DNA of 64,000 bases from Megamerina dolium (lineage: Eukaryota; Arthropoda; Insecta; Diptera; Megamerinidae), in the NCBI GenBank assembly GCA_963854835.1, contig OY978525.1, forward strand, positions 59,795,855 to 59,859,854, written 5' to 3'. Of the stretch, positions 4,640 through 61,220 are shown one piece after another. The translations under genes were made by a program, and so were the position numbers. Numbering within the stretch: the stretch's first letter is position 1; every line of letters begins with the position of its first letter. The notes beneath the pieces were generated by a model. That model did not search any database, was not told the DNA's origin, and saw only the letters and a program-made list of their open reading frames with translations.

Positions 4640-5203
4640 CGTAGTTAACACGAAATTCTTTTAAAGTACCGAAAATTATCCAAACCCTACATATGTGTTG
4701 TGGCCGATCTGAACATATTTTGGAACGCGTAATTAATGAAGCCAAAAATAGGGCGCCACTTAAAGATAAGTTAGAATCTTTAATTGAGTTTTCATTATGC
4801 GCCAGGTGACATGCTGTCACCTGGCAGTACATCTCATGAATCCATTATTAGTGGTAGAATTGGTAGATAAGCTGCCAAAAAATTTTAAGCTGGGTTGGGC
4901 CATGCATACAAAATATGAACGAGTACCAATAGTTAAGGTTTTCAGTAACGTTGGACCGGTGATACAATACGCACGGAATATAGTTCATGCAAAACCACTG
5001 TAGAAATTTCGGGCGTTATGAACGGACGTAAATACAAATTAACTGATGCCCACACTATGGAAAGTTTAAGTCTTTCAGCTCAAACGATCGATGCTGATGA
5101 ATTAATAAAAAAAAAATATCCATATTTGGCTGGGTTACCAATTTAATAGTATGAAAATGCCAGACCATCTATTTTGATTGGTACAGATAATTGAAATCTA
5201 GCT
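4640..5203 (+). pseudogene. BEL/Pao gag (DUF1759) and protease remnants
   Basis: A plus-strand frame from about 4660 resembles the DUF1759 Gag domain (RSEHILERVINEAKNRAP, DKLESLIEF). It then shifts to LMNPLLVVELVDKLPKNFK and LGWAMHTKYERVP, the end of that domain. Most of the zinc-knuckle region and the protease active site are missing. From about 5175 ILIGTDN is readable, the C-terminal block of BEL protease, joined to the pol frame through a stop. Gag would form the particle and protease would cut the polyprotein. Both are dead here through internal deletion and stops. Confidence 0.65.
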
Positions 5204-6832
5204 GTGCCACTTAAAATTCGAGAGGGGTCGTGGTACCAACCCATTGCATCGAAAACCAGATTTGGTTGGACGCTTCAAGGATGTAACACAAAGCAATGGT
5301 CAAATGACTTCATGGTGAATGTTCACAATTGTGACTGTGAGAGACTGCACGATATTGTGAAAAGCTATTTTAATCTTGAAGAGCCAAAACCAAGACAACT
5401 GCTGACTGTAGACGACAACAAGGCGCGAGCTATTTTAAATGCGTTTAGTAAGAAAGTAAGCAATCGTTATGAAGTTGGATTACTTTGGTGGAACGAAGAT
5501 GTTACCTTGCCAGAAAGTTACGCAAATGCTTACAGACGACTAACGTGTCTTAAAAAGAAGTTTATTAAAGACCCGTCTCTTAAATCTACGATCCAACAAC
5601 AAGTAAACAACCTAATTTCAAAAGGGTACGCAAAAAAATTTTCATCAGCTGAGGCAACCATTCAAACAAGCAAAACTTGGTATTTGCCGATATTCACCGT
5701 CACGAATCCGAACAAGCCAGGTAAAATTCGTTTGGTATGGGATGCAGCCGCCAAGTCAAATGGCGATTTTATGATCACTGGACTCGACTTGTTGAACTCG
5801 CTTGTTGAAGTTTTACTATCATTTCGAGTTGGGAGAGTGGCAGTATGCGAGGACATAGCTGAAATGTTCCACCAAATCAATATCAGAGAAAGCGATATGC
5901 ATGCTCAAAGGTTTTTATGGTGGGACGAAGCCGATAAGCCGCAGCGACCAAGCGTTTACGTGATGCGTGCCCTGACGTTTGGCAGGAACTGCGCTTCATG
6001 CATTGCGCTTTTTATACGAGACAAGAACGCCGAGCAATTCCGACATAAGTTCCCGCGAGCAGTTGAGGCTGTGCAGCATCACCACTACGTTGACGACTTC
6101 ATCGACAGTGGGCGGGATGAAGAAACTGCCCTTGAATTAGTCAAGCAAGTAAAACTATTTAATGCTAGTGCTGAATTCGAGGTAAGGAACTGGGCATCTA
6201 GCTCTGCCAGGATTCCACAGCAACTAGTTAGCAACAACTTAACCGAGCCAGCCTTCAAGGAGTGGGGCTCTACTACCAAAATCTTAGGTATGTTTTGGGA
6301 GCCTATAAATGATGTGTTCAGATTCAATTGTAGATTTGCAAGACTACGTCGCAACGTATTGAATGAAGCAATTACCACCACGAAGCATGAAACTCTTCAA
6401 ATCTTGATGTCTATTTTTGACTCGCTGGGATTCCTTTCGGTTCATACCATAGGGCTGAAAGTACTTCTTCAGGATATATGGTGTGCTGGCATTGGTTGGG
6501 ACGAGCCACTCAACGACACATTATATGATAAATTGTTCAATTGGAGACCAACGATTCCTCTCATAATGGATGTAAAAGTATGTCGTTGCTACTCAACTAA
6601 TCTCCTTAGTGAGAGTAACGTCGAACTTCACACTTTCGTGGATGCCAGCGCATCCGCATTCGCTGCTGTTAGTTACCTACGCATCCAGCACGACAATAAC
6701 GTAGACATCGTCTTTGTTGCAGCGAAATCCAGAATGGCACCCTTAAAGCCAGTCTCAATCCCAAGATTGGAGTTGCACGCTGCAGTGGCATCCAAAAAAC
6801 TTCCACCAGTTTGTTATGCACCGAGTTGGTGA
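5204..6832 (+). pseudogene. BEL/Pao pol: reverse transcriptase and start of RNase H
   Basis: A 542-codon open stretch in an otherwise broken pol. It begins in the protease-RT linker (FGWTLQGC). RT blocks are PIFTVTNPNKPGKIRLVWDA, FHQINIRESD and HHYVDDFIDSG with the YVDD catalytic pair, followed by KILGMFWEP of the connection and LHTFVDASASAFAAVSYLR with the first RNase H Asp. BEL/Pao RT copies the genomic RNA inside the particle. The ATG at 5204 is not a natural start, because pol is made as part of a polyprotein. The frame closes early in RNase H, after SIPRLELHAAV. This is the best preserved part of the copy and RT motifs look intact. Confidence 0.85.
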
Positions 6833-13141: not shown

Positions 13142-13185
13142 GCCTTACTTACTTACTTATGTGGCCATAACAACCAAATATCGAT

Positions 13186-13917
13186 TTAGGCCGAATATAA
13201 TATCCTTCGCCAGCCATCTCTGTTCTTCGCTAGCTGGCGCCAGTTAGAAAACCCAAGCATCGTCAGGTTCTCCAGTACTTTGTCTTTCCAGAGGAGGTTA
13301 GGTCTTCCTCTTTTGCGTCGTCCTTCAGCGGGTTTCGAATATAACACCTTCTTAGCTGGAGCGTGTTCTTCCATTCGCTCGACATGACCTAGCCAGCGCA
13401 GCCACTGGATTTTGATGCGTTTTACTATGTCAATATCGGCATACAGCTCGTACAGCTCATGGGTGTAGCTTATTCGGTACTCCCCACCAACGCAAATAGG
13501 TCCAAAGGTCCTGCGTAGGACTTTTCTCTCGAAAACTCCAAGCATTCGCTCATCCGAGGTGGAAATCGTCCAGGCTTCAGTGCCATATGTTAGGACAGGC
13601 ATGATGAGAGACTTGTAGAGTGTAGTTTTCGTTCTTTGAGAGAGGGCTCGACTTCTCAATTGCTTACTTAGCCCAAAGTAACACCTGTTAGCAAGAGTTA
13701 TCCTACGCATGATCTCCAAGCTGACGTCATTACTGCTGTTAATGCTGGTTCCAAGATAGACAAAGTCCCTTACTACTTCAAAAGCGTAGTTGTCAACATT
13801 GACGTGCTGTCCAAGACGCCGGGACTCTTTGTTTGTTGACACTACACTTCGTTTTGCCCTCGTTGACCGTAAGACCCATCCGACGCGACTCTCTTTCCAA
13901 CTCTGAGAATGCTGCAC
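13186..13917 (-). pseudogene. RTE copy A: RT thumb and C-terminal domain
   Basis: The open frame continues RT after the deleted YADD region: VDNYAFEVVRDFVYLGTSIN, RITLANRCYFGLSKQLRS, then SLIMPVLTYGTEAWT. The conserved C-terminus is QWLRWLGHVERMEEHAP, GRRKRGRPNLLWKDKVLEN and NRDGWRRILYSA. The WLGHVERM ... GRRKRGRP ... W pattern is the hallmark tail of this type of endonuclease-reverse transcriptase and replaces RNase H. The stop falls about 45 bases before the element's 3' end. It matches copies B and C with scattered substitutions. Confidence 0.85.
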
Positions 13918-15091
13918 TGACTGCCCGCGTGTTCATGCCGATTAGGTCAATATCGTCGGCATGAAACTTTTGTTGAAAATAGTGCCATTATGTCGTAGAT
14001 CAGCAGCTCGTATTATCTTCTCCATAATAAGATTGAAGAAGTCGCACGATAGCGAATCACCTTGTCTGAAACCCCGTTCAGTATTAAACGGTGCGGAGAG
14101 GTCCTTCCCAATTTCACTGCACAACGGGAGTTATGCAGTGTCATTCTACAAAGTGGAATGAGCTTTGCAGGAATACCGAACTCAGACATTGTTGCATAGA
14201 GGTAATCCCTTACCGGACTGTCGAAAGCGGCTTTATAATCAACAAATAGGTGGTGTGTGTCGATCTGTTCTTCTTGGGTCTTCTCCAGGATTTGGCGCAG
14301 TGTGAAAATCTGGTCGATGGTGGATTTACCAGGTCTGAAGCCACACTGATACGGTCCAATCATGTTGCTGATCATAGGCTTCAACCTTTCACACAGTATG
14401 CTCGATAGAACCTTGTATGCGATGCTCAGGAGACTTATTCCACGGTAGTTGGCGCAAATTGTGGGGTCTCCTTTTTATGTACAGGACAGAGAACACTGAG
14501 GCTCCAATCATCAGGCATGCTTTCATCCGACCATATTCTGCTTATGAGCTGGTGCATGCGGGTGAGCACCTCATCGCCTCCGGTCTTAAACAACTTGGCA
14601 GGCAGGCCATCAGCACTTGCAGCTTTGTTGTTCTTCAGCCTTAAAATGGCCGTTTCAACCTCGTCATAGTCGGGGGGTGGAACATCAACACCACCATCTG
14701 TAATCGGGGTTATCGGGCAATCCTCTCCACTGGCGGAGTTGTTCGTAGCATCGCCATTCAGTAACGTGGAGAAGTGTTCCCTCTATAGGCTCAGTACACT
14801 TTGGACATCTGTAACCAGATTTACATTTCCATCACGACAAGAAGAGGCTCCGAGATTTAAACCGCCGCTCAGGCGCTTGATCTTTTCGAAGAATTTTCGA
14901 GTCTCATTCTTGTCGGTACACATCTCTACCTCCTCTCACTCGCGTCTTTCCAACTCCCTCTTCTTGTGCCTGAAAAGACATCTCTCTGCACTCCTTTTCT
15001 CTCTGTACTGCTCGCTAACAGCTCGCGTTGCACCTGCACGCAGGGTTCTTCTGTAGGCGGCGTCTTTCTCTGCTGTAGCGTCGCGACACTC
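13918..15091 (-). pseudogene. RTE copy A: reverse transcriptase, broken
   Basis: Minus frames read FKTGGDEVLTRMHQLIS, ANYRGISLLSIAYKVLSS, then MIGPYQCGFRPGKSTIDQIF, FVDYKAAFDSPVRD and GFRQGDSLSCDFFNLIMEKI, RT blocks 1-4 in order. Block 5 is damaged: before ADDIDLIG about 17 bases are missing compared with copy C, where it reads LLAYADDIDIIG. This shifts the frame. Another shift lies near 14450 (VHKKGDPTICANYRG) and several changes lie in the linker (14700-15091) to the endonuclease. Confidence 0.8.
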
Positions 15092-33985: not shown

Positions 33986-36920
33986 TTAGTCTAGTTTCGT
34001 ACCTAAAAATTTTTTTAATATATTATTATGAAATATTTTGTTTTTACCATTAATTTCTATAGTAGAATTTACTCCATTTGTGTCTATGATTTTGTATGGA
34101 CCGTGATATGGACTCTGGTTTTTCTTTTTGTTTTCATATTTTACATATACCAGGTCTCCTACTTTAAAGCTTGCTTTATTTACATTCTTGTCATATTCTA
34201 GTTTTCTTTTTCTTTTCACATTGTTTATTATTTTTCTGGCCATTTCTTGTGACCTTTTTATTCTTAATTTTAGCTCTTCGGCATAATTATCAATATTGTA
34301 GAAATGTTTATTTGTTTCTATTGTGTCATTTGGAAGTGCTGGTAGTTTACCAAAAACTAATTCGTATGGAGAGTAGTTTGTGTCAATGTGTGGTGTTGTG
34401 TTATAAGCAAAAGTGTAGTATTGTACCCATTTGTCCCATTCATAATCTTCCGCGAAGGTTAGAAGGTATTCATTAAGTGTCCTATGGTTTTTTTCTAAAG
34501 CGCCTATTGTTTGGTGATGGTAAGGGGTAGAAAATATTTGTTTGATATTTAGTAATTCACATATGTTGTGCATCAGTTCGTTTACGAACTCGGTGCCTCT
34601 GTCTGACTTTAGGGTTTTTATGGTTCCATATTTTAGGATTAACTGTTCAACTAATGTGGTCGCTATAGTTTTTGCTTCTTTATTAATGATTGGGTATGCA
34701 ACTACGTATTTTGACAAATCACATTGCATTGTTAATATGTATCTGTAACCGTTAGAAATGCGCAAAGGACCTACTGTGTCAATTGTTACTGTCTCAAAAG
34801 TTGTTGTTGGTGTATCTGTCACTACGAGTGGTTCTTTTGTGTGTTTTATTATTTTATTTTGCGTACATGCTGCGCAATTATTTATGAATTCTTTAACCAT
34901 TTGTCGCATGTTTTTCCAAATATATCTTTGTTTCAACTTCAATATTGTCTTTCTAATTCCTAAATGTCCTGCTGTATTAGAGGAGTGGAATTCATCAATT
35001 AATTTGTATTGTATTATGGTACTTTTTATTTGTACTGGAGCTTTATATATTAGTATTTTTATTGGCACGCTTTTATTCTTCTCGAGCTCATCGTATTTCT
35101 TTTTGAATGCATTCATTTCTATATTCTTTAATATATATTCTTGTTCACAAAGGGCTAGCTCCTTTATCTGTGAACTGTGCATTGAACTATGTAGTTTCTC
35201 CAACATTGAATCTAGTTTCAAAGGGTCATCGCTACAAGTCATTTGCACTTCATTATTTATAATTTTTACTGTAGTACTACTTTCTTTATCGATAATAATT
35301 TTCAATTTATATAAATTCTTAACGTCAATGAAGGATGTACATTCCCAAATATGAAGTTGATCAGGCTTCTTAGGAGATGTTTTTCCGTTCATGCGTTTCC
35401 CGGGTAATAAATTTTCATCTTTCTTATATGCATGCGTTATTTCATTATTCATTTGTGCGGCCTTGCTCCTTGTTAAAATGTTAATATATTTTTCTTTTGT
35501 TATTTCTGTTTCACTCGTGGGTATCATTGCTTTTAAAGTGTCGCTATCTATTTTGATGCGTGACAGTGCATCTGCGTTAGTGTTTATTTTGCCTTGTTTG
35601 TAGATTATTTCAAAGTCATAATCAGATAAGTCTACTCTGATTCTTGTCATTTTCGATGATGGGTTTTTGTGTGCGAATAATGAGACTAATGGTTTGTGGT
35701 CGGTTACGACAATAAATTTTTTTCCGTACAGGTATGTTCGGAATTGGTTTATGCCCCAATGAATAGCTAATAATTCTTTTTCAATTATAGGTTTATTGAT
35801 ATCGTGTTTTTGCAATGCTTTACTTGCATAGGCAATTGGTAGGTCATGTCCTATTTCACCTTGTGATAATATTGCTCCTAGAGCAAAGTCAGATGCGTCA
35901 GTAGTAAGTATAAAGGGTTTATCGAAATTAGGGTATTGTAAGATTGGTGGTTTAATTAATTTATCTTTTAATGTGCTGAATGCTTTTTCACATTCTTCTG
36001 ACCAAATGAAAGGTTGTCCCTTTTTTAATAGTGAGTTTAGACATTTTGCTATTGATGCAAAATCTGGTATAAATCGTCTGTAATAATTGCAAAATGCAAT
36101 GAATCTTCGTGTTTCATCTGCGTTTGTTGGTCTTGGGTAATTGCGTACTATCTCGCATTTGGTTGGGTCAGTTTTTACACCTTTGTCTGTAATTAGATGT
36201 CCTAGGTAAAGTACTTCTGGTTTCAGGAATTGGCATTTGCTTGCATTCAGTTTCAGATTGTATTTCTTTAGTTTTTCGAATACTTTTAAAAGATTTTGAT
36301 TGTGGTGCCGTATGGAACATCCAAAAACGATAATGTCGTCAACGTAGAGAAATGCTTCTGATTTTAAGCTAGAGAGTGCTATAGTTAGCATTCTTTGAAA
36401 ACTGTTAGAGGATATTTTTAATCCAAATGGTAGTCGTTTGAATTGATAATGACCGTCTTGGGTCGAAAAAGCTGTAACAGGTCTTGAGTCATTATCTAAT
36501 GGGATTTGGTGAAATGAACTTGTCATGTCTAATGTGGTGAAGTATTTTGCTCTTCCTAGCATATCTAGTATGTCTTCTAGTCGTGTTAATGTCAACCACT
36601 AATCGCCATTTTTTGTTGCCATTTTCACTTTTCTTTGGTACTAGAAGTAATGGTGAGTTGTAAGGGCTAACTGAAGGTTCAATAATGTCCTCTATCATGC
36701 CTTGTATTTGTTTCTCAATTTCTTCCTGTTGAGTATGTGGAAGTCTATAATTTTTTATGTATACTGGGGAGTTATCTGTCAAGTTTAGTTTTTGTGTATA
36801 AAATGTGTTGGTTGAAAGCTGTTCACCTTCTAAGTGAAATATTGATTGATATTTTCTAAATATGTCGTGTAATTCTGATTCCATATTTTTATCTAATTTT
36901 CCTAGGTTTAATTCCTTCAT
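33986..36920 (-). pseudogene. 412-like pol: RT, RNase H and integrase, with one RT deletion
   Basis: The first part (36920-36600) gives LHDIFRKYQSIFHLEGEQLS, IIEPSVSPYNSPLLLVPKK and KKWRLVVD. It should continue through Y-R-x-L-N and further codons to TLTRLEDILDMLG. About a dozen codons are missing and the frame changes there, near 36600. From 36595, 869 codons are open: YFTTLDMTSSFHQIPLD, FLYVDDIIVFG (catalytic pair), YLGHLITDKGV, RNase H with LTTDASDFALGAILSQ and VTDHKPLVSLF. Integrase follows with HLGIRKT, CAACTQN, TIDTVGPL, LKSDRGTEFVNEL and HQTIGALEKNHRTLNEY. Its C-terminus has FKVGDLVYVKYENKK and YHGPYKIID. Everything except the RT gap is well kept. The lineage fits 412/mdg1 by overall character. 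Confidence 0.9.
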
Positions 36921-42067: not shown

Positions 42068-42379
42068 AATGAATTCATGTTCCCACGTACAATTTCAAAT
42101 AGATACTCGTTTCTTTATTTTACCCAGAATTTATGCATCCTCACCCGTTGCTGTACGCAATTTTATTCCCATTAAAGGCTCACACCTCTTTACCAAATCG
42201 CTCTTGATTATAGAATGTGATGCACCAGTATCCAGGGTTAACATGAATTCCATATTGTCCAGTTTTCCATCAATAGTCAAGCTGCTTGGCACACGCTGTA
42301 GTTGTGAAATGTGAATGATGGGGCAACCCACTGTTGGAGTGACTCGATATACTTTAACGATGGATATGTGTTAGTGGAG
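42068..42379 (-). pseudogene. SAP-gypsy copy 2: protease active-site part
   Basis: The reading GCPIIHISQLQRVPSSLTID, then MEFMLTLDTGASHSIIKSDL and GIKLRTATGEDA, is the aspartic protease with its DTGAS loop, kept complete here. A stop near 42130 separates it from the C-terminal half at 42067. The 5' side (42379) is interrupted by RTE copy B. The TATGTGTTAGTGGAG target duplication lies in the Gag-protease linker. Confidence 0.8.
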
Positions 42380-44149
42380 TGTGAGGAGATAGAGATGTGT
42401 ACCGACAAGAATGAGACTCGAAAATTCTTTGAAAAGATCAAGCGCCTGAGTGGAGGTTTAAATCCCGGAGCCTCTTCTTGTCGTGATGGAAATGGGAATC
42501 TGGTTACGGATGTCCAGAGTGTACTGAGCCTATGGAGGGAACACTTCTGCACGTTACTGAATGGCGATGCTGCGAACAATTCCGCCAGTGGAGGAGAATG
42601 CCCGATAACCCCAATTACAGATGATGGTGTTGATGTTTCACCACCCGACTATGACGAGGTTGAAACGGCCATTTTAAGGCTGAAGAACAACAAAGCTGCA
42701 GGTGCTGATGGCCTGCCTGCCGAGTTGTTTAAGACCGGAGGCGATGAGCTGCTCACCCGCATGCACCAGCTCATAAGCAGAATATGGTCGGATGAAAGCA
42801 TGCCTGATGATTAAAGGCTCAGTGTTCTCTGTCCTGTACATAAAAAAGGAGACCCCACAATTTGCGCCAACTACCGTGGAATAAGTCTCCTGAGCATCGC
42901 GTACAAGGTTCTATCGAGCGTACTGTGTGAAAGGTTGAAGCCTATGCTCAGCAACCTGATTGGACCTTATCAGTGTGGCTTCAGACCTGGTAAATCCACC
43001 ATCGACCAGATTTTCACACTGCGCCAAATCCTGGAGAAGACCCAAGAAAAACAGATCGACACACACCACTAATTTGCTGATTATAAAGCCGCTTTCGACA
43101 GTCCGGTAAGGGATTACCTCTATGCAACAATGTCTGAGTTCGGTATTCCTGCAAAGCTCATTCGACTTTGTAGGATGACACTGCATAACTCCCGTTGTGC
43201 AGTGAAAATTGGGAAGGACCTCTCCGCACCGTTTAATACCGGACGGGGTTTCAGACAAGGTGATTCGTTATCGTGCGACTTCTTCAATCTTATTATGGAG
43301 AAAATAATACGAGCTGCTGATCTACGGCATAATGGCACTATCTTCAACAAAAGTGTCATGCTGTTAGCGTATGCCACCGATATTGACATAATCGGCATGA
43401 ACACGCGAGCAGTCAGTGCAGCATTCTCAGAGTTGGAAAGAGAGTCGCTTCGGATGGGTCTCACGGTGAACGAGGGCAAGACGAAGTATCTAGTGTCAAC
43501 AAACAAAGAGTCCCGGCGTCTTGGATAGCACGTCACTGTTGACAACTACGCTTTTGAAGTAGTAAGAGACTTTGTCTATCTTGGAACCAGCATTAACAGC
43601 AGTAATGACGTCAGCTTGGAGATCATGCGTAGGATAACTCTTGCTAACAGGTGTTACTTTGGGCTGAGTAAGCAATTGAGAAGTCGAGCCCACTCTCGAA
43701 GAACGAAAACTACACTCTACAAGTCTCTCATCATGCCTGTCCTAACATATGGCGCTGAATCCTGGACAATTTCCACCTCGGATGAGCGAATGCTTGGAGT
43801 TTTCGAGAGAAAAGTCCTACGCAAGATCTTTGGACCTATTTGCGTTGGTGGCGAGTACCGAATAAGGTACAACCATGAGCTGTACGAGCTGTATGCCGAT
43901 ATTGACATAGTAAAGCGTATCAAAATCCAGCGGCTGCGCTGGCTAGGTCATGTCGAGCGAATGGAAAAACACGCTCCAGCTAAGAAGGTGTTATATTCGG
44001 AACCCACTGGAGGACGACGCAAAAGAGGAAGACCAAACCTCCGGTGGAAAGACCAAGTACTGGAGAACCTGACGGCGCTTGGATTTTCTAACTGGCGCCA
44101 GCTAGCGAAGAACAGAGATGGCTGGCGAAGCATGTTATTTTCGGCCTAA
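42380..44149 (+). pseudogene. RTE copy B: RT and C-terminal domain
   Basis: The frame opens within the endonuclease-RT linker (CTDKNETRKFFEKIKRLSGG, then LKNNKAAGADGLPAELFKTG). A shift near 42812 leads to NYRGISLLSIAYKVLSS and YQCGFRPGKSTIDQIF. A stop at about 43071 interrupts FADYKAAFD. The long frame 43130-43528 has GFRQGDSLSCDFFNLIMEKI and LLAYATDIDIIGMN, where the catalytic pair YADD has become YATD. After a stop (43526) the tail RLRWLGHVERMEKHAP and GRRKRGRPNLRWKDQVLEN to NRDGWRSMLFSA (44149) is whole. Two stops, one shift and the Asp-to-Thr change inactivate it. Confidence 0.85.
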
Positions 44150-44195
44150 ATTGATATTCGGTTGTTATGGCCACATAAGTAAGTAAGTAAGTAAG
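42380..44195 (+). mobile_element. RTE-like non-LTR retrotransposon, copy B, 15-bp target duplication
   Basis: A 5'-truncated copy on the plus strand. The left duplication is 42365-42379 (TATGTGTTAGTGGAG), the right 44196-44210. It ends with GTAAGTAAGTAAGTAAG. SAP-gypsy copy 3 (53009-53045) shows the empty site with one copy of the 15-mer (one change). Confidence 0.95.
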
Positions 44196-44210: not shown

Positions 44211-45562
44211 CGATCGCTGTCCACCTTATTCTCCTTCTTTTGTCTTCCTGGAGAATTCGATCCTGATCGCTTTCGTCGTAGACGGCAGTCAGCCGCCATG
44301 TGTCCTAGTTTGTCGCAAATGAAGCACTTACCAGTAAATTTGATTTCGCGTCGACCTGTTGTGCTTCCTTCAGGCTTTACTAGTGACTTAACCGCCTGCC
44401 TCTAGTTGGCGTACACGTGGCACTGGTCGACACATTAAACTGGCGGCTTCATACGTCAAGGCACTACTGACTGTTTCGGCATATGTATTCCTTGGTGACA
44501 TGACTAGGGCACGCTTTGTCTCTCCATCACGTATGCCATCTATGAATGCCTCTATTTTTATTTTTTCGACGAACTCTTCTGAATTACCGGAGAACGCTAG
44601 ATGACATAAGCGCTCAATATCGGAAGCGAATTCCTGAATGCTCTCGTTACTCCGTTGCACACGCGATCTTAACTCCACTAGATGTAATTGACCCTTGTAT
44701 TCATTTCCATATTTCCGCTGGAGTGTGTCCATCAGTGATTGGTAACTACCACGATCTTTCTCTGGAATCATCTGTAACACTTCGGAAGCATTACCTTTTA
44801 ATGCGACTATTAAAGCAGCAGTCTTGTCGCTATCATCCCACTGATTCTTCGAAGCTGTTGTATCGAATTGAAGCTTGAAGATATTGAATGGCGTGCTTCC
44901 GTCAAATGTTGGTGGCTTTAGTTTGCTTGTGCTTGAATCTCTAATCACTGATGTGGCTGGTCCATTTATTTTTAGTTGATTGAGTTCGTGCTGTAATTTC
45001 TCGAACTTATCTTCCCAGTCGTCGACATGTTCCTTCAGCTTATCATCCAACTCATCCACGTGTTCTTTCAGCTCTGTGACTTTGTCATTAATAGCTCCGG
45101 AAATTTCCTGAAATCTAAGCTCAATTCCTTTTTGTAGATTTTCGATGACGTGCTCTTGGCGAACCGAATGTTCTTGAAGCTTGGAGTCAATTGTTTTCTG
45201 GAACTCTGCCATAGCGTTTTCTTGACGTACCGAATGTTCTCAAACTTGAAGTCAATGCGAGACGCATTTTCTTGTAACTTCGCATTAATTCCTTGCAGTT
45301 GCTGCTGCTGTTGTTGCATCATGGATTTCATGAGTTCCATTAGTTGACCACTCGAATCTACCTTGCTCTCTTCCTCGGCGTGCACCACTGCATGTATCTC
45401 GGCTTCCTCAAAGAACTCATGTTCTTCTACATTAATTCCCTTAGCCTCCATGGCTTTCCTCAGCCTCACCAGTAGTTCCGCCTTTGCACCTGATGACGAT
45501 AGATTCATCTCTACCAACAGCTTTTTAAGCTGGTCCACTTTTAGTTGGTCAATTTTCACCAT
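44211..45562 (-). pseudogene. SAP-gypsy copy 2 gag
   Basis: The ATG at 45562 follows the primer site. VDQLKKLLVEMNLSSSGAKA, then ELLVRLRKAMEAKG is the SAP-like motif near the N-terminus. A poly-Gln run and NAKLQENASRIDFKFEN follow, then a shift near 45220. The frame from 45212 reads AEFQKTIDSKLQEHSVRQEH and a long coiled coil (ITELKEHVDELDDKLKEHVD-like), then capsid (PPTFDGSTPFNIFKLQFDTT, ASDIERLCHLAFSGNSEEFV) to RQLEAGG (44388). Beyond it KCFICDKLGHMAADCRLRRK (44330-44270) is a CCHC zinc knuckle. RTE copy B cuts the linker at 44211. One frameshift and one stop separate the parts. This is the fullest view of this Gag. Confidence 0.85.
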
Positions 45563-53881: not shown

Positions 53882-53886
53882 ATTTG

Positions 53887-54330
53887 TGTCTAAATCCCTT
53901 TAGACAAGCCATATGGCCAGTCCCTGAAAGAAGGAAGTAAAAATAATGAAATAGTATTTATAAAATGAATTAATGATACTTACCATTTTTACTTACCTTA
54001 CCTTGCATACTTACCATATGGCAACCCAACTCTCCACATAAATTCCCCTTTTATGTTTTTGGGTTTTCGCGGTTCGCGTTATGATCGACCGATGTTATCA
54101 TATTTACATTCGGTCCGTGAAGATATTTTGGCGAGATTGTGGTTTTTCCGCGCTTTTTCTTTTTAAACATAAATACGAACATTTTTATACATTCGTTCCT
54201 TTTCAATTCGCTCATCGCGATATATAAATTGTAATAATTTTAAATAGAGATTAGTGCATGTGAATATATAATTGAAATTATACATATTGTGATTCTGTGC
54301 AAATAAGATAAACGCTGGAAATAAACATTG
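53887..54330 (+). repeat. Left arm of the inverted-repeat element (LTR-like, reversed against gag)
   Basis: It begins with a small perfect hairpin (GTCTAAA, TCCC, TTTAGAC) and the palindrome GCCATATGGC. Inner end at AATAAACATTG. Matches 57342-57785 reversed. Confidence 0.9.
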
Positions 54331-56031
54331 TGGTCCTTCGAGCATTGTGGTCCTTTGTACCTTGGTAGAGATGAATGTTCGTTGAGAACCTTGGTCGATG
54401 AGTGCTCGAACCTTGTGAAGTTCTCCAAGATGCTCTATAGAGACAAGAGCTGTGGGTAAAAGAGTTCTTTCTTCATTTGAGGTGAACAATGCTTGCACCT
54501 TTAAAGAAGATTTGGAGCATGATGAGCAGGGTTGCTCATCTTCGGATGATCGGTCCTGAGATCTCCGGTTTCTCGAGTTTCTTGAGGGGGTTATCGTCTG
54601 CTGCGTGCTCTTTTTCTTATTCTGCGGCTGAAGCGTGGAGGTTTGCGCCAAAACCCTGGTGTTCCTACTGGGAATATTGTCTGCTGGTATGTGAAGCATC
54701 GTGTGATGCCTTCGCTGACATTGCAAACAGGAATGTTTGCTCTTGCAGTCCCGTTTATGGTGAGTAAAGGCCAGGCAGTTCTCACAGAGATTGTGTTCTC
54801 GAACAAGCCTCACTCTATCACGAACAACTAACTTTTTAAACCGCTCACAGGATTTAAGCGAATGTGCGGCTTCGCAGATTGGACAAGAGAATGTCCGACT
54901 GCTTTCGGAAAAAAAGTTTTGGGTTTTGTTGTGGGGTCTGTTTTGTAGAAATCCTGATTTATTTGGCTTGACGCTGTTGAGCCTCTCCACGACTTCGTAC
55001 CTTAGTGTCAGGAATTCGTCCATTTGCTGCCATGTTGGGAGATCCTTGCGGGAACTTAGGGATTGTTCCCAGAGAGCCAAGGAATCTTCAGGCAGTTTTG
55101 AACAGCAGATATGCACCAGGATCGGGTCCCAATTCTCTGTCGAGCCGCCTTGAGAGGATAAGACGGACAGAGAATTATTGATCGTGGTTTGCAATTTCTG
55201 AATTGCCTCGCTATTCTCGTAACTCACTTGAGGGAGGTTCAAGAGAGTTTTTATCTGCTTATCGACCAGAATTCGCTTGTTTTCGAAGCGGGCCTTTAGC
55301 GCATTCCATGCCAACTCGAAATTTTCGTTGTTGAGCGCGTACTGCTTCACAATAGCTCCAGCTTTTCCTGCAGTTTTGTATCGGAGATGATACAGTTTTT
55401 GGGCAGAAGAGAGTTTAGGGTGGTTTATGTAAACCGCCGTAAACATGTCGCGGAAGGACGTCCATTCTTCGTACCCGCCGGAAAATGTTTCGGTATCACA
55501 AGTAGGAACAGTCAGGCAAATTGCGGAATTATTTGCCTGCTCTGTTGCAGAAATAGAGTTACTTTCTGCTTGTGATGGAAGTTCCAATCTGGAGGCTGAT
55601 TGAACTTCTAAGAGATCCGAAATCTGTGCTTTTATGGTGTGCACGCGCTCTTGGCAGAGTTCCATTTTATTTCTCGCTGCCATTTTGAAATTACTGGGCA
55701 GCTCGTCCTCATCCGTTAAACCTACTCTTCTAAACGTGGACTTGACTTGATCATAATAGCAGCTCAAGTCCTCGAGCTTAGCCTTCAGGAGAGAAGGCGT
55801 TAAGTCTTCAACCGGAATTGTTGAAAACTTCGTGCAGAAATGCACCAGGTTGTCCGCCTCGAAAATGAACTCATTCATGGAGGGGTCATAAGCTCTTTTC
55901 CTAGGGGTTTTCTTTGTTTCGGATGGAACTTTTGGCATTTTTTCCACTGCGCCTTTTGGAATAGCGCCAGCTGACTCTGCCCTACGACCTTCAGCAATTT
56001 CCTGCTTTTCTGGTGATTTCGTCACCGGCAT
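54163..56031 (-). CDS. Intact BEL/Pao-type Gag with protease start
   Basis: A 622-codon open frame from ATG 56031. Residues 45-170: helical N-terminal region (LVHFCTKFSTIPVEDLTPSL, VHTIKAQISDLLEVQSASRL). Residues about 180-345: DUF1759 Gag core (CDTETFSGGYEEWTSFRDMF, LAWNALKARFENKRILVDKQ, ILVHICCSKLPEDSLALWEQ). Residues about 380-450: three zinc-knuckle blocks (CPICEAAHSLKSC, LCENCLAFTHHKRDC, CLQCQRRHHTMLH). Then a Ser/Arg-rich linker and VRALIDQGSQRTFISTKVQ, the start of a BEL protease (D-Q-G). After about 25 protease residues the frame enters the left inverted arm and its last 50 or so residues are encoded there. Pol is absent. It is the best preserved long gag in the window. Confidence 0.85.
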   Translation of the reverse strand: MPVTKSPEKQEIAEGRRAESAGAIPKGAVEKMPKVPSETKKTPRKRAYDPSMNEFIFEADNLVHFCTKFSTIPVEDLTPSLLKAKLEDLSCYYDQVKSTFRRVGLTDEDELPSNFKMAARNKMELCQERVHTIKAQISDLLEVQSASRLELPSQAESNSISATEQANNSAICLTVPTCDTETFSGGYEEWTSFRDMFTAVYINHPKLSSAQKLYHLRYKTAGKAGAIVKQYALNNENFELAWNALKARFENKRILVDKQIKTLLNLPQVSYENSEAIQKLQTTINNSLSVLSSQGGSTENWDPILVHICCSKLPEDSLALWEQSLSSRKDLPTWQQMDEFLTLRYEVVERLNSVKPNKSGFLQNRPHNKTQNFFSESSRTFSCPICEAAHSLKSCERFKKLVVRDRVRLVREHNLCENCLAFTHHKRDCKSKHSCLQCQRRHHTMLHIPADNIPSRNTRVLAQTSTLQPQNKKKSTQQTITPSRNSRNRRSQDRSSEDEQPCSSCSKSSLKVQALFTSNEERTLLPTALVSIEHLGELHKVRALIDQGSQRTFISTKVQRTTMLEGPQCLFPAFILFAQNHNMYNFNYIFTCTNLYLKLLQFIYRDERIEKERMYKNVRIYV

Positions 56032-57341
56032 ATTTGACCGAATCTATCAAAATTTGTGAAATGAAGAGACTTTCAAAAAAATGCACCAAAATGCACTGAT
56101 CGATTATGTGACGATATCGATATAGAGCAATTTATCGATCGATAACAGAAATGTTATCGATATAATGCGTTAATTAGAGTTATTTCCAAATATGCTGCTG
56201 CAAGGAAATTGCAGTCTGAAAGTTTGAATTCCACACAAAAAAAAAATATATATATATACAATATATATATATGGGTATATATATAAAGAGAAATGTGTAT
56301 ATACGTATATATGAGAATATATAAAAAATGAAATTTGTGTATATATAAGTGAATATATATACCGACGAAAATATATGGGAATATATGGAATTGTATATGT
56401 GATATGTATATGGAAATATATTAAATTATGTATATAATATATGTGGGAATATGTATACAAGAGTTGAAATGTGTAATATATATAATTGAATATATATAAG
56501 AATATATATGTATATATATCTGTGAATATATACACCAAAACGTAATATATATATGAGAATATATATAAAATGAAATTTGTGTATATATAAGTGAATGTAT
56601 AAGAATATATACGTATATATCTCTGTGAATATATACACCAAAACGCAATATATATGAGAATATATATAAAACGAAATCTGTGTATATATAAGTGAATATA
56701 TATACCGATGAAAATATATGGGAATATATAGAATTGGATATGTGATATATATATGGAAATATATTAAATTATGTATATAATATATGTGGGAATATATTAG
56801 AGTTGAAATGTATAATATATATAATTGAACATATAAGAATATATATGTATATATATCCGTGAATATATATACTAAAACGTAATGTATATATGAGAATATA
56901 TATAATATAGTATATAAAAACGTTCTTATCTTGTGCCTTGTTGTTGATGCTGCTGCTGCCCCAATTCAGACGATGCCACCGCTGGTTTTTTTTTTTTTCG
57001 TTTTACTTTGTCTTATTATTAGATTTATTTTTAATTTTTATGTATAAAAAATTTCAATAAAAAAAAAATTTATTTGGGCCGCTCTAATGCATACCCTATT
57101 CTGCCGCTTTTATATACACTTTTTTTTTTTTTTGTTTTTACTGTTGTCACTTTATGTACTCACTGAACTTGTTTGTTGTTACTATTTCAGGCTTATTTAT
57201 TGTACCACTAATGTTTAAATTATTTTAATTATGGCACTGTATTGTTCTTTATTGGTACATAAACATTGCTTTTGGATTTAAGCACTTTGTTTCTCACCTC
57301 ATTTTGTATGCAAGCCGATTCTTAGTTTTAGCTCAAAGGAC
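56032..57341 (-). other. Leader of the inverted-repeat element
   Basis: Between the right arm and the gag start. It contains a TATATAAAAG box (about 57108-57117 on the minus strand), poly-T/A runs (56987, 57121) and an AT-rich array at 56225-56920. No primer-binding site was recognised. No coding is seen; the Tyr/Ile-rich frames are array artefacts. Confidence 0.55.
56225..56920. repeat. AT-rich tandem array with GAATATATA motif
   Basis: Two to three degenerate units of roughly 300 bp (for example 56290-56540 and 56640-56880 share ATACCGATGAAAATATATGG-like and AATATATGTGGGAATAT blocks) built from GAATATATAT-like words. Confidence 0.75.
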
Positions 57342-57785
57342 CAATGTTTATTTCCAGCGTTTATTTTATTTGCACAGAATCACAATATGTATAATTTCAA
57401 TTATATATTCACATGCACTAATCTCTATTTAAAATTATTACAATTTATATATCGCGATGAGCGAATTGAAAAGGAACGAATGTATAAAAATGTTCGTATT
57501 TATGTTTAAAAAGAAAAAGCGCGGAAAAACCACAATCTCGCCAAAATATCTTCATGGACCGAATGTAAATATGATAACATCGGTCGATCATAACGCGAAC
57601 CGCGAAAATCCAAAAACATAAAAGGGGAATTTATGTGGAGAGTTGGGTTGCCATATGGTAAGTATGCAAGGTAAGGTAAGTAAAAATGGTAAGTATCATT
57701 AATTCATTTTATAAATACTATTTCATTATTTTTACTTCCTTCTTTCAGGGACTTGCCATATGGCTTGTCTAAAGGGATTTAGACA
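57342..57785 (-). repeat. Right arm of the inverted-repeat element (LTR-like, same sense as gag)
   Basis: The minus strand starts TGTCTAAATCCCTTTAGACA and reaches AATAAACATTGG at 57342. It contains AAATAAACATTG, a possible polyadenylation signal, and TATATAAATTG near 57448. The opposite strand carries GTAAGT motifs and a TTCTTTCAG acceptor-like sequence. Confidence 0.9.
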
Positions 57786-57790
57786 ATTTG

Positions 57791-59688: not shown

Positions 59689-59703
59689 ATTTATACGTGT
59701 ATA

Positions 59704-61107
59704 CTTACTTACTTATGTGGCCATAACAACCGAATATCGATTTAGGCCGAAAATAACATGCTTCGCCAGCCATCTCTGTTCTTCGCTAGCTGGCGCCAGT
59801 TAGAAATTCCAAGCGCCGTCAGGTTCTCCAGTACTTGGTCTTTCCACCGGAGGTTTGGTCTTCCTCTTTTGCGTCGTCCTCCAGCGGGTTCCGAATATAA
59901 CACCTTCTTAGCTGGAGCGTGTTCTTCCATTCGCTCGACATGACCTAGCCAGCGCAGCCGCTGGATTTTGATACGCTTTACTATGTCAATATCGGCATAC
60001 AGCTCGTACAGCTCATGGTTGTACCTTATTCGGTACTCGCCACCAACGCAAATAGGTCCAAAGATCTTGCGTAGGACTTTTCTCTCGAAAACTCCAAGTA
60101 TTCGCTCATCCGAGGTGGAAATTGTCCAGGCTTCAGCGCCATATGTTAGGACAGGCATGATGAGAGACTTGTAGAGTGTAGTTTTCGTTCTTCGAGAGAG
60201 GGCTCGACTTCTCAATTGCTTACTCAGCCCAAAGTAACACCTGTTAGCAAGAGTTATCCTACGCATGATCTCCAAGCTGACGTCATTACTGCTGTTAATG
60301 CTGGTTCCAAGATAGACAAAGTCCCTTACTACTTCAAAAGCGTAGTTGTCAACAGTGACGTGCTGTCCAAGACGCCGGGACTCTTTGTTTGTTGACACTA
60401 GATACTTCGTCTTGCCCTCGTTCACCGTGAGACCCATCCGACGCGACTCTCTTTCCAACTCTGAGAATGCTGCACTGACTGCTCGCGTGTTCATGCCGAT
60501 TATGTCAATATCGTCGGCATACGCTAACAGCATGACACTTTTGTTGAAGATAGTGCCATTATGTCGTAGATCAGCAGCTCGTATTATTTTCTCCATAATA
60601 AGATTGAAGAAGTCGCACGATAACGAATCACCTTGTCTGAAACCCCGTTCGGTATTAAACGGTGCGGAGAGGTCCTTCCCAATTTTCACTGCACAACGGG
60701 AGTTATGCAGTGTCATTCTACAAAGTCGAATGAGCTTTGCAGGAATACCGAACTCAGACATTGTTGCGTAGAGGTAATCCCTTACCGGACTGTCGAAAGC
60801 GGCTTTATAATCAACAAATAGGTGGTGTGTGTCGATCTGTTTTTCTTGGGTCTTCTCCAGGATTTGGCGCAGTGTGAAAATCTGGTCGATGGTGGATTTA
60901 CCAGGTCTGAAGCCACACTGATAAGGTCCAATCAGGTTGCTGAGCATAGGCTTCAATCTTTCACAGAGTACGCTCGATAGAACCTTGTACGCGATGCTCA
61001 GGAGACTTATTCCACGGTAGTTGGCGCAAATTGTGGGGTCTCCTTTTTTATGTACAGGACAGAGAACACTGAGCCTCCAATCATCAGGCATGCTTTCATC
61101 CGACCAT
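59704..61107 (-). mobile_element. RTE-like non-LTR retrotransposon, copy C, 15-bp target duplication
   Basis: ATTTATACGTGTATA at 59689-59703 and 61108-61122 flanks a 5'-truncated minus-strand copy ending in (TAAG)n at 59704. Confidence 0.95.
59742..61091 (-). CDS. RTE copy C: uninterrupted RT and C-terminal domain (5'-truncated)
   Basis: 449 open codons. RT starts within block 1-2 (LSVLCPVHKKGDPTICANYR). Then GFRPGKSTIDQIFTLRQIL, FVDYKAAFDSPVRDYLYATM with the first catalytic Asp region, GFRQGDSLSCDFFNLIMEKI and VMLLAYADDIDIIGMNTRAV with the YADD pair. Thumb: MGLTVNEGKTKYLVSTNKES, VDNYAFEVVRDFVYLGTSIN. C-terminus: RLRWLGHVERMEEHAPAKKV, GRRKRGRPNLRWKDQVLEN, NRDGWRSMLFSA. No stops or shifts are seen. 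The endonuclease and 5' end are missing through incomplete reverse transcription, so it cannot act alone. It looks like the youngest of the three RTE copies. Confidence 0.9.
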   Translation of the reverse strand: MPDDWRLSVLCPVHKKGDPTICANYRGISLLSIAYKVLSSVLCERLKPMLSNLIGPYQCGFRPGKSTIDQIFTLRQILEKTQEKQIDTHHLFVDYKAAFDSPVRDYLYATMSEFGIPAKLIRLCRMTLHNSRCAVKIGKDLSAPFNTERGFRQGDSLSCDFFNLIMEKIIRAADLRHNGTIFNKSVMLLAYADDIDIIGMNTRAVSAAFSELERESRRMGLTVNEGKTKYLVSTNKESRRLGQHVTVDNYAFEVVRDFVYLGTSINSSNDVSLEIMRRITLANRCYFGLSKQLRSRALSRRTKTTLYKSLIMPVLTYGAEAWTISTSDERILGVFERKVLRKIFGPICVGGEYRIRYNHELYELYADIDIVKRIKIQRLRWLGHVERMEEHAPAKKVLYSEPAGGRRKRGRPNLRWKDQVLENLTALGISNWRQLAKNRDGWRSMLFSA

Positions 61108-61220
61108 ATTTATACGTGTATATGCATATGGAAATAACCCGGTCATTCCCCAATATATGTATGTATATATATATTTATGTACCCATATAAAGTGCACATA
61201 AGCACATATACATCTCTAGT

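Follow-up and report, generated by a model that had tools for sequence, protein, structure and literature searches.

In the genome assembly of the fly Megamerina dolium (Diptera, Megamerinidae; GCA_963854835.1), a 64,000-nucleotide stretch of contig OY978525.1 (C1:59795855-59859854, hereafter the window) carries at positions 53887 to 57785 a BEL/Pao retroelement whose long terminal repeats (LTRs) stand in inverted orientation, and which lies within the gag region of a second retroelement, referred to here as the host. The inverted arms extend over 444 nt (53887-54330 and 57342-57785), are 99% complementary and lie 3011 nt apart, as had been recorded in a preliminary description of the locus. 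The pair is not due to chance, because the next-best inverted pair within a distance of 12 kb in the window has only 83 nt at 89%, and none is longer. With the primer-binding site on either side included, the homology takes in 450 of 457 positions, while the LTR proper measures 441 bp (TGT...ACA) and differs between the two arms by four substitutions (Table 1).

When the element is read on the minus strand from position 57785, it begins like a normal BEL/Pao copy, with an LTR, a primer-binding site, a long leader, gag and the start of the protease, and over 1665 bp it is 99.5% identical to another genomic copy, L021. The gag product matches DUF1759 (Pfam, E 5.9e-29), in agreement with the BEL-type gag recognised earlier between the arms. 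After the protease start the rest of pol is missing, and the stop-to-stop frame 54163-56043 continues from gag into the left arm. To judge from this coding content the copy could not move by itself, because reverse transcriptase and integrase are both lacking. The arms had been described as having U3-type ends; the U3 ends do point outward on both sides, and the arms themselves are whole LTRs.

The insertion is bounded on both sides by the duplication ATTTG that had been noted before. When the flanks are fused with a single ATTTG, they are collinear with the two host gag copies found elsewhere in the window, at 45094-45178 and 10160-9779. This indicates that the insertion is exact and was accompanied by a 5-bp duplication; both of these uninterrupted paralogues carry ACGTG at the position of ATTTG. 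Removal of the insertion was said to restore a SAP-gypsy gag, and the collinearity of the flanks agrees with a restored gag, while the name SAP-gypsy is a label of the preliminary description: the interrupted host frame to the left of the insertion matched no Pfam family, and a host gag paralogue in the window matched Retrotrans_gag.

Table 1. Features of the inverted-LTR insertion, with positions in the window
Feature	Positions	Strand	Basis or interpretation
Target-site duplication ATTTG, left copy	53882..53886	.	Flank comparison
Left arm: whole LTR (TGT...ACA) facing against the internal region, with its U3 end on the outside	53887..54327	+	Genome LTR comparison
T, extra TG and 13 nt of primer-binding site TGGTCCTTCGAGC	54328..54343	+	Together with the LTR, built like plus-strand strong-stop DNA
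Templated filler at the junction, ATTGTGGTCCTT, in which the LTR/primer-site boundary is repeated in part; final two bases could equally be gag	54344..54355	+	
BEL/Pao gag and protease start, collinear with normal copies to GTACAA(A)	54354..56043	-	
Leader (5' untranslated) containing AT-rich repeats; can be aligned with that of normal copies	56044..57330	-	
Primer-binding site at its regular position, TGGTCCTTTGAGC, differing by one change from the sequence usual in the family	57331..57343	-	
Right arm: whole 5' LTR, regular in position and orientation, with its U3 end on the outside	57345..57785	-	
Target-site duplication ATTTG, right copy	57786..57790	.	Flank comparison

The LTR family in the genome

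The left arm was used as the query in a search of the whole genome (500 Mb in 8 contigs), in which 40 of 641 first-look candidates were scored, so that the counts given here are lower bounds. At least 45 matches at 40 LTR places were obtained, two of these places being the arms themselves; the ends of all 38 other copies were inspected, and 18 of the 38 entered the alignment used for base comparison. The LTR start TGTCTAAATCCC is present in 36 of them (L041 is one base off and L010 is truncated), and 3' LTR copies are preceded by GCATGCGGGCCGCGA, with one base different in L045. The primer-binding site TGGTCCTTCGAGC, which we take to be the complement of 13 nt of transfer RNA-Tyr (tRNA-Tyr), follows 15 of the 5' LTRs, of which 16 could be assessed: in 14 it is unaltered, L056 has it with a single change, and in L044 it is deleted.

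Neighbouring LTRs could be assessed as pairs in 11 cases, and in all 11 they are direct repeats, so that elements using the arm sequence as ordinary LTRs, for which a search had been proposed, do exist. An identical 5-bp duplication flanks ten of these pairs (TTGAT, TCTAC, ATTCC, TCTGG, CTTGT, CCATG, GGTGT, GTTAT, AAAGT and CAAAA), and in the eleventh (L017/L041, in a tandem-duplicated locus) the duplication matches in four of five bases. Three solo LTRs likewise each have a 5-bp duplication (CATAC, TTGAT and GAATT). The other 13 of the 38 copies are unpaired or truncated; for ten of them the expected partner place was fetched, and a partner piece was present in four, always direct, with none in the other six. 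Among the pairs seen, only the pair in the window is inverted.

With regard to coding sequence, family copies L005 and L008 have DUF5641 above the cutoff upstream of the 3' LTR, and in L005 only there is an integrase (rve) match below its cutoff. A piece of early pol scanned in L021 matched no reverse transcriptase family; a weak Piwi match in the same piece fell under the cutoff and was discounted. On these sequence comparisons, both arms are full LTRs, and the family to which they belong is an ordinary BEL/Pao family of this genome. The family shares with BEL/Pao elements the type of gag and pol, and the copy in the window has the primer site after the LTR and the 5-bp duplication. This copy departs from them in that its LTRs are not direct repeats; it is thus an aberrant product of the family and not a normal member.

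It had also been suggested that the insertion is a foldback-type DNA transposon that captured gag, and long inverted terminal arms are what such an element would present. Foldback arms are not LTRs, however, whereas the arms here are LTRs followed by a primer-binding site, and the same LTRs flank direct-orientation copies with BEL/Pao coding sequence, so that this explanation can practically be set aside.

Several other loci of the family were seen in the course of this comparison. A 201-bp LTR piece identical to the start of the left arm (L065, C1:40180155-40180355) lies at the expected partner place of copy L015. At C6:28559703-28580279 and C6:21223145-21228339, LTRs with like flanks recur at spacings of about 13.2 kb and about 4.8 kb, respectively, and these are probably tandem duplications of loci holding an element copy. 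Two normal direct-LTR copies, L038/L039 (C6:39.47-39.48 Mb) and L043/L044 (C2:55.69-55.70 Mb), appear, like the window copy, to have inserted into gag of the host family; their flanks resemble, by eye, the window at 53.85 kb and 57.88 kb, and their placement hints at repeated nesting in host gag.

One event and two U3 ends

At LTR position 313 both arms have C, where all 18 other aligned copies have T. The arms are probably the product of one reverse-transcription event, because they carry a base that is absent from these 18 copies. Among the four substitutions that separate them, three occur in the right arm only and the fourth in the left arm only, and on alignment the arms have the appearance of copies made from a single template, which later diverged at 4 of 441 sites (0.9%). 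The insect substitution rate is near 0.011 per site per million years, at which this divergence would place the insertion roughly 0.4 million years ago, a figure that is illustrative only.

The complementary DNA (cDNA) of an LTR retrotransposon normally has one U3 end and one U5 end. Here both termini of the insertion are U3 ends (TGT...) adjoining the same duplication, from which we infer that the molecule had two U3 ends before it was integrated, because recombination between repeats preserves LTR orientation and would not be expected to replace an outer U5 end by a U3 end. This bears directly on the alternative in which one normal insertion, or two opposed ones, was later inverted and deleted in place. 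The locus is rich in retroelement repeats, as such a rearrangement would want; recombination of a normal insertion should nevertheless keep one U3 and one U5 outer end, and the empty site is exact, which makes a rearrangement after insertion very unlikely.

An assembly artefact must also be weighed, since the sequence is rich in repeats, the junction between gag and the inverted LTR was seen once, and it is known from the assembly alone. The duplication and the LTR ends are exact, though, and the base shared by the arms only, the substitutions specific to each arm and a junction with small overlaps would not be expected from a misjoin. A false join therefore appears highly improbable.

The junction between gag and the inverted LTR

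Native gag-protease sequence is followed collinearly to GTACAA(A), after which normal copies continue with GGACCA. Across the 16 loci scanned at this point, the native continuation GTACAA(A/C)ATCGGCTG is present in 13; L027 is the window's own junction, and L022 and L024 are pieces without the site. In the window, the minus strand past GTACAA(A) reads AGGACCACAATG, then CTCGAAGGACCACAATG and then the inverted LTR. In plus-strand order the left side thus consists of the LTR, a T, an extra TG, 13 nt of the primer site, the partial copy ATTGTGGTCCTT and antisense protease-gag, with overlaps of 1-2 nt at the two joins. A repeated AGGACCACAATG at the junction had been pointed out before. The repeat is there, and neither copy is gag: both are copies of the primer-site/LTR boundary. 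The extra TG occurs in both junction copies, so that it predates their duplication.

A 121-bp query across the join gave a full-length match in the window only, and the other 39 matches listed (the best 40 of 225 candidates were scored) cover the gag side only. Among these best 40 there was no second copy of the junction, so that they gave no support to the mobile inverted-repeat lineage that had been raised as a possibility; further inverted copies may stand among the candidates beyond these 40.

The position of the join is informative with respect to mechanism, as 3 + 13 nt separate it from the CA end of the LTR and place it within the primer-binding site. The left arm stops in this site, and the leader that follows it elsewhere (TAAAAC in 13 of 15 other copies) is not entered. 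Self-integration (autointegration) was one of the origins previously proposed for the insertion, and it is the cause to which inverted 2-LTR circles (PMC4751563) and inversion circles (PMC2644782) are ascribed. In such an event, however, the CA end should be joined directly to an internal site, whereas the join here is 16 nt past CA and carries filler. The products described are, moreover, circles, which would need to be reopened at two U3 ends before insertion. Self-integration is accordingly hard to credit as the source of the inverted LTRs.

In retroviral-type replication, plus-strand strong-stop DNA ends inside the primer-binding site. By our own estimate, a random break in an element of about 8 kb would hit a site of 13-18 nt about 0.2% of the time, and a strong-stop origin is favoured because the inverted arm ends in the primer site, which would be rare for a random break. 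The best reading, to which we give a probability of roughly 0.65, is that the insertion is a single integration, in the normal manner, of an aberrant cDNA with two U3 ends derived from an ordinary BEL/Pao LTR retrotransposon. The length of the duplication, the exact ends, the base common to the arms only and the single occurrence of the junction all support an aberrant reverse-transcription product of this kind, as the preliminary description had proposed.

In this scheme, plus-strand strong-stop DNA would have failed to make the second jump, normally onto the primer site of the minus strand, and its 3' end would instead have been joined to a plus-sense strand within gag-protease by two jumps with 1-2 nt of overlap. 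Either the strong-stop 3' end may have primed on the plus-sense strand, or a truncated plus strand may have jumped onto the strong-stop 3' end; both routes would give the same product, from which the direction of synthesis cannot be read. Copying on to the 5' end would then yield a linear duplex that terminates in U3 on both sides, and these two ends would be paired and inserted by integrase in the usual way.

The main rival is that two cDNA pieces, one broken in gag and one consisting of the LTR and primer site, first became linked head to head when the host repaired them by microhomology end joining of the polymerase-theta type, and that the resulting molecule with two U3 ends was then inserted by integrase. 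In flies, theta-mediated joining leaves scars with small overlaps and templated filler, and the junction has both, with overlaps of 1-2 nt and a tandem templated filler. What speaks against it is that the LTR piece ends at a landmark of reverse transcription, the primer site, and not at a random place. The base common to the arms fits one event, yet two cDNAs of one source copy would also be allowed by it. End joining is thus a less probable origin that nonetheless deserves to be taken seriously.

Several points weigh against reverse transcription with a missed strong-stop transfer. The extra TG between the LTR and the primer site of the left arm is absent from all 15 other primer sites compared, and its origin calls for slippage or an addition without a template. 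The right half needs a plus-strand DNA template that already had a U3 end, and hence two plus-strand starts or two molecules. Templated filler is made by host polymerase-theta joining as well, and the 13-nt limit depends on the tRNA-Tyr sequence that we have assumed. Finally, the structure is known from the assembly and not from reads, and the LTR and junction candidates were scored in part (40 of 641 and 40 of 225).

Comparison with known systems

The window family presumably has the same primer, tRNA-Tyr, as the Achilles family of the olive fly. Achilles is a BEL/Pao family reported to be primed by tRNA-Tyr, and it also has a TG...CA LTR with a primer site, a long leader bearing repeats, and gag and pol in one frame; the copy in the window differs from it in having inverted LTRs and nothing past the protease start (PMC4580426).

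In Triticeae, rice and maize, three-LTR complex insertions with flanking duplications have been attributed to template switching (Sabot and Schulman, 2007; PMC1950507). There too, aberrant reverse transcription was inferred from flanking duplications and similar outer LTRs, and insertion was by integrase in the normal way. In those insertions, however, two internal regions are linked through a third LTR lying between them, the authors place the switch at R, and inverted outer LTRs were not described. The autointegration circles share with the present copy the inverted LTR orientation; they are unintegrated and result from an attack of integrase on the DNA of the element itself (PMC4751563; PMC2644782), whereas the product in the window is integrated and joined in the primer site.

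Inverted LTRs also bring to mind the DIRS-like elements. To our knowledge, these make no target duplication, whereas the copy in the window has one of 5 bp, which argues for insertion by integrase rather than of the DIRS type. DIRS-1 resembles it as a retroelement with inverted LTRs and differs in its tyrosine recombinase, its circular cDNA and the fact that the inverted form is the normal one there (PMC5633606). A Pfam scan of the gag frame in the window returned DUF1759 only, and no search aimed at a tyrosine recombinase was made.

A paper on locust gypsy elements credits the classic structure of Gypsy-25 with 'an inverted pair of LTRs' (PMC8786324). The wording is perhaps loose, and 'target site' occurs nowhere in the text, but Gypsy-25 may be a precedent. 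No description of an integrated element of the same form was found in the open-licence literature searched, which is weak evidence of absence, as most subscription journals lie outside it. Inverted-LTR molecules have been the subject of older work on Ty, copia and retroviruses.

Other elements in the window

Elsewhere in the window, three copies of one reverse-transcriptase unit (13144-14941, 42377-44191 and 59702-61110) share 94-98% identity; RVT_1 was matched in the third, and the unit is of non-LTR type by look only. A Pao-type pol fragment on the plus strand (5195-6829) has Peptidase_A17 together with a reverse transcriptase match below threshold. On the minus strand, an 870-aa open frame (33989-36598) has reverse transcriptase, RNase H, zinc-binding and integrase domains and is gypsy-type by domain order.

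Implications

If the favoured reading is right, the copy in the window illustrates a route from an LTR element to a long inverted repeat without any foldback transposon. A wider and improbable extension would be that linear cDNAs with two U3 ends, arising from missed strong-stop transfer, are a recurrent by-product of BEL/Pao replication that is accepted by integrase in the germ line, in which case the inverted LTRs would give convergent promoters and hairpin RNA and could seed small-RNA silencing of the family. If the insertion did arise by a missed strong-stop transfer, it would be a naturally preserved trace of a second strand transfer that failed but whose product entered the germ line all the same, and it would indicate that a BEL/Pao integrase is able to insert two U3 ends in a concerted way.

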